Below, one piece after another: positions 19,838 through 35,502 of a stretch of 64,000 nt of DNA. The stretch is from the NCBI GenBank assembly GCA_018675975.1, contig JABGXB010000002.1, positions 256,098 to 320,097 on the forward strand, in the 5' to 3' direction. Positions within the stretch are counted from its first letter, which is position 1. Every line of letters starts with the position of its first letter. Under the pieces are notes generated by a model that saw nothing but the letters and a program-made list of their open reading frames with translations, did no database searches and had not been told where the DNA came from. The DNA comes from Candidatus Woesearchaeota archaeon. GTDB taxonomy: Archaea; Nanobdellota; Nanobdellia; Woesearchaeales; JABGXB01. Made by a program: the position numbers and the translations under genes.

Positions 19838-19971
19838 CCCCGCTTAGCTCAGCCTGGTAGAGCAATCGGCTGTAAAAAGTAAAAGACTTTCATTTGAAAT
19901 GAACAGGATGATATTTACTCAGTTTGATTGCAGATCCCGATGTGTCGCTGGTTCAAATCCGGCAGCGGGGA
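19838..19971 (+). tRNA. tRNA-Tyr (GUA anticodon) with 60-base intron
   Basis: The ends pair as CCCCGCT/AGCGGGG with the C1-G72 pair of archaeal tRNA-Tyr and discriminator A73. Anticodon stem ATCGG/CCGAT is interrupted at the canonical 37/38 position by an intron at 19876-19935. The intron end TTGCAG pairs with CTGTAA of the anticodon loop, leaving a three-base ATC bulge at the 3' splice site, as in a bulge-helix-bulge. The intron body also folds (AGTAAA/TTTACT and an inner TTCAT/ATGAA hairpin). The mature tRNA is 74 bases. Confidence 0.88.
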
Positions 19972-29051: not shown

Positions 29052-29169
29052 TGGGGGTACTGGGATTTGAACCCAGATCAGCCGGTATCGCCATATTTTA
29101 AGTCATCGCCAAAGCTCATCGCTCCAAAATTTTGGAGCCGGCTATGCTACCGGATTACACCATACCCCC
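29052..29169 (-). tRNA. tRNA-Trp (CCA anticodon) with 45-base intron
   Basis: The ends pair as GGGGGTA/TACCCCC with discriminator A73. Anticodon stem GCCGG/CCGGC encloses CTCCAA-intron-A, anticodon CCA, with the intron at 29087-29131 in the canonical 37/38 position. The T arm is CTGGG-TTCAAAT-CCCAG. The intron contains GCGATGA twice, close to the box C consensus, and a CTGA lies at the 3' exon junction. Archaeal tRNA-Trp introns are known to act as box C/D guides for the tRNA itself. The 5' end of the intron is perfectly complementary to the anticodon loop (CTCCAAAA/TTTTGGAG). Confidence 0.9.
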
Positions 29170-33666: not shown

Positions 33667-34638
33667 ATGCCTAAAACAAACGCACCAAGACACGGAAGTA
33701 TGCAATTTTGGCCAAGAAAAAAAGCCAAAAAACAAAGCGCACCTAGACTTAGAAATCTTCAATTAAACGAAAATATAGGCTTACCGATTTTTGCAGGATA
33801 TAAAGCAGGAATGACTCACATTCAATATTTAGATAATAAAAAAACATCTCCGCTAAAAGGTGAAATTGTTAATGTCCCAGTAACTGTTATAGAATGTCCA
33901 CCAATTAAAATTGCAAATGTGAGATTTCATAAAACAGATGATTATGGAACACATTGTATTGGTCAATTTAATAATAAAGTAGAAAAAGAAATGTCAAAAA
34001 GATTCCCATTACAAAAAAAAGAATCAAAAAAATTAGAAGATTTTAATGATTTTGATAAAGTTACAATAACTGTTTATACACAACCAAAATTAACTGGTAT
34101 TGGTAAAAAAGCACCAGATTTAATGGAAGTTGAATTAAATGGAAAAGATAATAATGAAAAAATTGAATGGATTAAAAATAATTTAAGTAAAGAAATTAAA
34201 ATTAATGAAGTATTTAAAGAAAAAATCCAAGTTGATATTCACGGTATAACTAGAGGAAGAGGTTATGAAGGAACTACAAGAAGATATAATACACCAGAAA
34301 GACAAGCAAAGTCAGAAAAACATAAAAGAGGTGTTGGTTCATTAGGTCCGTGGTTACCATTAGTAAGACATACTGTTTTGTTTCCTTCGAGATGGGGGAG
34401 TCATTTAAGAACAGAACATAATAAACAATTAGTTAAAATTTCAAATGAATCAGATTTAGTAAATCCAGAAGGTGGATTTTTAAAATACGGTTTAGTCAAA
34501 AACGATTATATTTTAGTACATGGTAGCGTACCTGGTAAAGCAAATAAATTAATTGTATTATCAAATGCTAAAAGAGAAAACAAATATATGAATATGATTG
34601 ATAATGTTAAATACATATCAAAAAAATCAAAACAATAG
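33667..34638 (+). CDS. rpl3: 50S ribosomal protein L3
   Basis: This 323-residue protein is archaeal L3. The N terminus is HGSMQFWPRKKAKKQ, a central AGYKAGMTHIQY follows, and the tip loop that reaches the peptidyl-transferase centre is IHGITRGRGYEGTTRRYN with PWLPLVRHTVLFPSRWG. It opens the long plus-strand operon in the archaeal order L3-L4-L23-L2. A frame on the opposite strand across its start is a shadow. Confidence 0.96.
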   Translation: MPKTNAPRHGSMQFWPRKKAKKQSAPRLRNLQLNENIGLPIFAGYKAGMTHIQYLDNKKTSPLKGEIVNVPVTVIECPPIKIANVRFHKTDDYGTHCIGQFNNKVEKEMSKRFPLQKKESKKLEDFNDFDKVTITVYTQPKLTGIGKKAPDLMEVELNGKDNNEKIEWIKNNLSKEIKINEVFKEKIQVDIHGITRGRGYEGTTRRYNTPERQAKSEKHKRGVGSLGPWLPLVRHTVLFPSRWGSHLRTEHNKQLVKISNESDLVNPEGGFLKYGLVKNDYILVHGSVPGKANKLIVLSNAKRENKYMNMIDNVKYISKKSKQ

Positions 34639-34639
34639 T

Positions 34640-34691
34640 CAATGATGAGGTTATTCCCGACTGATAAATGATGATTAAAAGGATCTGAGAC
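34640..34691 (+). ncRNA. Box C/D guide sRNA between rpl3 and rpl4
   Basis: The 54-base gap between rpl3 and rpl4 holds a complete archaeal C/D sRNA: box C ATGATGA at 34642-34648, a 12-base guide, box D' CTGA at 34661-34664, a 3-base spacer, box C' ATGATGA at 34668-34674, a 10-base guide and box D CTGA at 34685-34688. Guides are GGTTATTCCCGA (D') and TTAAAAGGAT (D). By the N+5 rule the modified target bases are the G in the RNA TCGGG-AATAACC and the U in ATCCT-TTTAA, written as DNA. Box D ends 4 bases before the rpl4 ATG. Confidence 0.88.
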
Positions 34692-34692
34692 A

Positions 34693-35502
34693 ATGAATTC
34701 ATTAAAAATATACGACACAAATGGAAAAGAAATAGGTAAAATAGAAATGCCTGAACAGTTTAATCAGCAAATAAAGTATACTTTGATTAAAAAATGTGTA
34801 TTAGCTTTAAGAGCTAATGCTAGACAAAAGTATGGTGCCGATCCATTAGCTGGACAAAAATGTGTTGCAAATATGAGTCATAGAAGAAGAAAATTTAATA
34901 CTGCATATGGATCTGGTCAAAGTAGAATCCCAAGAATGAGATTTTCAAGAAAAGGAACTCAATTCCATAGAAGAGGTGCATTTATTTCAAGTACTATTGG
35001 AGGAAGACGTGCACATCCACCTAAAGCTGAAAAAAATTGGACTCAAAAAATAAATAAAAAAGAAAATAGAACTGCAATTAGAAGTGCATTAAGTGCAAGT
35101 TTAAATAAAACAATTGTAGAAAAAAGAGGACACAAATTAGGTTCATTATATCCATTTATATTAGACGATTCATTTAAAGACATTAAAAAAACAAAACAAG
35201 TAAAAGAAAGTTTATTGAAATTGGATTTAAATGATGAATTAAAAAGAGTAGAAACTAGAAAAATAAGAGCTGGTCACGGTAAAGTAAGAGGAAGAAGATA
35301 TGTTACAAAATCAGGCCCATTAATTGTTGTAGATAATGATTGTGATTTAAAAAAATCAGCAAGAAATATTTTAGGGATTGAAATTGTAAAAGTAAATCAA
35401 ATTAATGCAAAATTATTAGCACCAGGAAGTCAACCTGGTAGATTGACACTATTTACAAAAAGTGCGATAGAGACAATGCAAAAAAATAAATTATTTATGT
35501 AA
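34693..35502 (+). CDS. rpl4: 50S ribosomal protein L4
   Basis: This 269-residue archaeal L4 (L4e/L1e type) has YGADPLAGQKCVANMSHRRRK, GQSRIPRMRFSRKG and IGGRRAHPPKAEKNW in its extended loop that lines the exit tunnel, and RAGHGKVRGRRYVTKSGPL in the globular part. The start lies just after box D of the C/D sRNA, so ribosome loading may depend on whether the sRNA is processed or bound. rpl23 follows after one base. Confidence 0.96.
   Translation: MNSLKIYDTNGKEIGKIEMPEQFNQQIKYTLIKKCVLALRANARQKYGADPLAGQKCVANMSHRRRKFNTAYGSGQSRIPRMRFSRKGTQFHRRGAFISSTIGGRRAHPPKAEKNWTQKINKKENRTAIRSALSASLNKTIVEKRGHKLGSLYPFILDDSFKDIKKTKQVKESLLKLDLNDELKRVETRKIRAGHGKVRGRRYVTKSGPLIVVDNDCDLKKSARNILGIEIVKVNQINAKLLAPGSQPGRLTLFTKSAIETMQKNKLFM

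Follow-up and report, generated by a model that had tools for sequence, protein, structure and literature searches.

The rpl3–rpl4 gap and its content

The window, a stretch of 64,000 nucleotides, comes from an archaeal genome of 1.03 Mb in three contigs (G000), the sole member of its family among the genomes compared in an order of 353 genomes; the closest named relatives of its L4 protein are in ‘Nanohalarchaeota’ MAGs, at 49% identity, which points to a DPANN lineage. The window contains a run of ribosomal-protein genes in which rpl3 stops at 34638 and rpl4 starts at 34693. No gap in the run is longer than the 54 nt between them; the remaining gaps seen are at most about 15 nt and often overlaps, in keeping with the original prediction that no other gap in the run exceeds 15 bases. 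The features of this region are as follows.

33667–34638, + strand: rpl3 (uL3), open reading frame; PF00297, E = 1.2e-58
34637–34692, + strand: C/D-box guide sRNA, full extent; match to covariance model R1, 63.8 bits (the window sequence is itself part of the R1 training set)
34638–34640, + strand: terminal stem, 5′ strand, GTC; pairs with 34689–34691
34642–34648, + strand: box C, ATGATGA; direct reading; TGATGA is invariant in alignment A1 (and fixed in the search pattern used to gather the sequences)
34649–34660, + strand: D′ guide, GGTTATTCCCGA; its core GTTATTCCCG pairs with 23S CGGGGAUAAC, N+5 = G2446 (E. coli numbering)
34661–34664, + strand: box D′, CTGA; direct reading
34668–34674, + strand: box C′, ATGATGA; direct reading
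34675–34684, + strand: second (D) guide, TTAAAAGGAT; holds the Shine–Dalgarno-like AAAAGGA, 34677–34683
34685–34688, + strand: box D, CTGA; direct reading
34689–34691, + strand: terminal stem, 3′ strand, GAC; alignment and stem covariation
34693–35502, + strand: rpl4 (uL4), open reading frame; PF00573, E = 3.4e-36

Read from 34642 to 34688, the gap runs ATGATGA-GGTTATTCCCGA-CTGA-TAA-ATGATGA-TTAAAAGGAT-CTGA, that is, boxes C (RUGAUGA), D′ (CUGA), C′ and D (CUGA) in this order, with guides of about 10–12 nt and a TAA spacer between D′ and C′. The prediction of four perfect, correctly ordered boxes with guides of 12 and 10 bases therefore agrees with direct reading, as does the placement of box D 4 bases upstream of the rpl4 ATG: box D ends at 34688 and is followed by GACA and then by the ATG at 34693. 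The span first proposed, 34640–34691, was correct to within the terminal stem (34638–34691), which closes the C/D kink-turn with 3 bp in the window (GTC/GAC; 4 bp covary in the family) and whose G is supplied by the TAG stop codon of rpl3. The intrinsic RNA fold of the element is weaker than that of shuffled sequences (z = 1.57), as would be expected of a protein-dependent structure.

Conservation across the order

Across all 1.03 Mb of the genome, the C-D′-C′ motif occurs four times, and it is absent from the reversed control; two of the other three matches are further plausible C/D sRNAs and one looks coding. We searched the order with the pattern TGATGA-N-TTATYCCCG-N-CTGA, in which the base before TTAT was left free. 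The block from box C through the guide to box D′ (TGATGA.GTTATYCCCG.CTGA) was recovered in 30 of the 353 genomes, compared with 0 for the reversed-pattern control, and the free base is always G in the 29 aligned copies, while the bases flanking the core vary. In a sample of the class, the block is present in 9/281 genomes, all within this order (0/211 class genomes outside it). The covariance model R1 reaches 79/353 genomes at E ≤ 0.01, a number that takes in the seed genomes and some others that have the second guide alone in common. Moreover, the four pairs of the terminal stem show 27 double-change cells over 29 family members, compared with 8.2 in shuffles (0/500), and the pairing of this stem, at 90.5%, collapses when it is slid by 1–3 columns.

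The genome also encodes the machinery on which such an RNA would depend: the fibrillarin and Nop5 genes neighbour each other at G000:C2:55156, and an L7Ae gene is expected in archaea generally. Matches to archaeal C/D families in Rfam are specific but sub-threshold (30.8 versus 45 and 25 versus 45); with neither snoPyro_CD (RF00095) nor sR1 (RF01152) scoring above its gathering threshold, the window sRNA is not a listed Rfam family. It nevertheless resembles archaeal C/D-box sRNAs such as these in its two guides of 10–12 nt, C-D′-C′-D order, short closed terminal stem, location at an ORF end without a promoter of its own and targeting of an rRNA hotspot near the PTC, and differs from them in its Rfam score and in being hosted in the rpl3–rpl4 gap. 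As a rule, archaeal C/D sRNAs are found at the ends of ORFs and are processed out of longer transcripts (PMC7994747). Elsewhere in the window, two stretches that match the Rfam tRNA model, 19838–19971 (+, 134 nt) and 29052–29169 (−, 118 nt), were missed by ARAGORN and are probable intron-containing tRNA genes.

The first guide and its probable 23S target

The 23S rRNA gene (G000:C1:53085–55993) contains CCGGGGATAACA. The conserved guide core GTTATTCCCG pairs with CGGGGATAAC of the organism's own 23S, on the peptidyl-transferase strand, over 10 bp including one G–U. The fifth guide base from D′, which is the position facing the nucleotide to be modified, opposes a G that is nucleotide 2446 by direct count in the E. 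coli 23S and 2471 in G000; an A–C mismatch adjoins D′ in G000. This target is retained in 15/15 of the 23S sequences checked. Judged in G000 alone, the match would be no more than suggestive, since 7% of shuffled guides do equally well, but it becomes convincing because exactly the segment that pairs is conserved. Three alternative targets of this guide, 23S GCGGGGGTAACT, 23S AAGGGAATAATC and 16S TAGGGGATAGCC, were dropped because it is the PTC target that the conserved core fits, and because positions beyond the core are variable.

On this complementarity and its conservation, the D′ guide very probably directs 2′-O-methylation of 23S G2446, in the catalytic heart of the ribosome. We take E. 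coli G2446 to be yeast 25S G2815, the offset of 369 being that between yeast A2820 and E. coli A2451. The window sRNA would then share with yeast snR38, the Gm2815 guide, and its metazoan and plant equivalents both the PTC strand targeted and, judging from the numbering, the nucleotide; snR38 is, however, a eukaryotic single-guide snoRNA, and the likeness is one of target site. The snR38-guided Gm2815 of yeast is a near-stoichiometric PTC mark (PMC5199042, PMC8307265).

The second guide

Searching the rRNA with both guides, a check proposed along with the original prediction, thus succeeded for the first guide but not for the second: TTAAAAGGAT has no 23S target above chance in the comparison with shuffled guides. 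A pairing with the GTPase centre (23S ATCCTTTAAA, N+5 near U1081) matches at 9/10 bases, yet 60% of shuffled guides equal it, and we rejected it. Nor did guide 2 covary across genomes with this 23S site, which reads AAAAGTTACTCC in 15/15 readable 23S sequences. The word AAAAGGA within the second guide is complementary to the 16S 3′ end (...CACCTCCTTTTT) and ends 9 nt upstream of the rpl4 ATG; Shine–Dalgarno-like words precede 10/72 ORFs of the window, compared with 2.9 expected.

In many relatives the D guide at the end of the sRNA resembles GGAGTAACTG and is complementary to 23S AGTTACTCC (N+5 = U2438). Since this target lies immediately upstream of the first one, their sRNAs are double guides to adjacent sites, an arrangement described for archaea (PMC7994747). 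The U2438 guide of G000 is absent from the window sRNA and present on another sRNA (G000:C1:428194–428251, L226/L110, guide GGAAGTAACTT) that passes the Rfam sR1 threshold (45.9 versus 45). As read from these sequences, the second guide of the window sRNA has replaced the U2438 guide of the relatives. It is probably an orphan guide, now held in its sequence by its role as the Shine–Dalgarno region of rpl4, a situation that has been anticipated for archaeal C/D sRNAs (PMC7994747).

A third C/D sRNA of G000 (G000:C1:145164, L227/L108) has two guides that both resemble D guides of Gm2446 sRNAs from other genomes (G491, G048/G480), which suggests that guides may swap partners between sRNAs. A separate order-wide C/D family combines a D′ guide GTGAACACCC with the same U2438 D guide (loci L193, L195, L198, L199, L201, L203, L207, L208, L211, L212, L216, L217 and L224).

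Recurrence of the rpl3–rpl4 site

Four of the 30 pattern copies lie in the rpl3–rpl4 gap (G000, G255, G322 and G451), and model R1 found two more in the same gap, with diverged guides, in G491 and G474, neither of which was used to build it. The six carriers belong to six different families. Same-site conservation in relatives, another check suggested at the outset, therefore holds for at least five other families, whereas most relatives have their copies elsewhere. In G255 and G322 the stop codon of rpl3 abuts or falls inside box C, which is reported to be a frequent arrangement among archaeal C/D genes (PMC7994747). The remaining pattern copies adjoin unrelated genes, and most copies in relatives are far from ribosomal-protein genes; three of them (L082, L085 and L105, from three genomes in two families) adjoin alaS, encoding alanyl-tRNA synthetase (Pfam-checked in two).

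A tree of L3 and L4 does not group the carriers, nor does it reject a single clade (p-AU of 0.12 for four carriers and of 0.43 when all six are included). The site could be ancient, with many relocations, or could have received repeated insertions; six random landings in one gap are not plausible. Co-transcription, or ‘hitch-hiking’, best explains the placement, since the site recurs in six families and yet most relatives keep the sRNA elsewhere.

Proposed function and alternative readings

Identification of the element as a C/D-box guide sRNA, as first predicted, is strongly supported by the conserved guide (30/353 genomes versus 0), the 23S target, the covarying terminal stem, the machinery genes and the same site in other families. 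From these observations, together with the boxes themselves, we infer an archaeal C/D-box 2′-O-methylation guide sRNA gene that is transcribed within the rpl3–rpl4 mRNA and whose D′ guide addresses 23S G2446, a reading to which we assign a probability of roughly 0.93. Under the model for archaeal C/D RNAs that are embedded in this way (PMC7994747), the sRNA would be made as part of the rpl3–rpl4 mRNA; L7Ae, Nop5 and fibrillarin would assemble on the C/D kink-turn and the C′/D′ loop; and nuclease trimming, as in known biology, would free a stable RNA some 56 nt long. The freed sRNA would pair through its D′ guide with the PTC strand of 23S and place the 2′-O-methyl on G2446. The rpl3–rpl4 gap would be one recurrent or ancestral host site, offering strong transcription without a promoter of its own, for a family that is spread over the order, usually at unrelated intergenic places.

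Two readings would deprive the element of this function. ORF ends favour TGA-rich words and this gap must also carry the rpl4 translation signal, so that the boxes might be coincidental TGATGA and CTGA words in an AT-rich gap around a stop codon and a Shine–Dalgarno sequence; this is already contradicted by the conservation of guide and boxes against an empty control and by the covariation of the stem, to which the complementarity of the guide to 23S is added, and its probability is negligible. An ancestral two-guide sRNA could also have lost its function here, its second guide turning into the Shine–Dalgarno sequence of rpl4 and its first kept by recent inheritance. The second guide indeed no longer fits the U2438 guide of the relatives, now on another G000 sRNA, and the first is mismatched beside D′. 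The four boxes are nevertheless perfect and the 10-nt guide core is intact on a long branch (1.04 for the end branch of G000), which argues for continued selection and makes such decay very improbable.

The relation to rpl4 is a separate question. Given how embedded C/D sRNAs are known to mature, processing would be expected to cut the mRNA: excision would necessarily use up the transcript concerned at the rpl3–rpl4 junction, and the sRNP, once assembled, would cover part of the region where rpl4 translation starts. The kink-turn might then double as a cis switch on rpl4, L7Ae-responsive or processing-dependent, in which assembly or excision hides or removes the Shine–Dalgarno sequence and start codon and couples methylation capacity to L4 synthesis. 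The stem and boxes reach to 2–4 nt from the ATG and the Shine–Dalgarno-like word lies inside the second guide, so that there would hardly be room on the RNA for an assembled sRNP and an initiating ribosome at once. Moreover, six families have the site, reporter expression drops when there is a 5′ overlap (PMC7994747), and L7Ae uses k-turns to repress its own mRNA and others (PMC5539422). In the l7ae leader of Sulfolobus, as here, an L7Ae-type k-turn adjoins the start codon (PMC5539422); the window element differs in having the boxes of both guides and a conserved rRNA target. However, the same guide is located elsewhere in most relatives, the distance from box D to the ATG varies (4 nt in G000, 5 in G451, 11 in G322 and 22 in G255), and archaeal C/D genes show such overlaps generally (PMC7994747). 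A dual function is thus unlikely. The original proposal that L7Ae ties rRNA methylation to rpl4 synthesis did not find support, given that most relatives have the guide far from ribosomal-protein genes and that archaeal C/D sRNAs mostly lie at ORF ends (PMC7994747); a regulatory link is possible but unsupported in the genomes with the embedded copy. Because most relatives have free-standing copies and the spacing to the start of rpl4 is variable, we argue that the link of the sRNA to rpl4 is incidental. We also doubt, rather strongly, that the gap is a conserved docking site for a catalytic-centre guide that is kept within the mRNA of two large-subunit proteins and whose making destroys or blocks the rpl4 message; if it were, rRNA methylation and the synthesis of ribosomal proteins would be joined by an inbuilt feedback.

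Significance

To our knowledge, C/D guide RNAs have not been described in this little-studied order of archaea, and a literature search by the likely lineage name found no such description. The guide sRNA of the rpl3–rpl4 gap is a newly found, well-supported case of an already known RNA class, and one C/D family of the order is now defined by sequence, target and covariation. The methyl mark predicted at a catalytic-centre nucleotide equated with yeast Gm2815 bears on the age of that mark. Finally, the same guide is embedded in a ribosomal-protein mRNA in some families and free-standing in others, which provides a natural set for testing the effect on the host gene.
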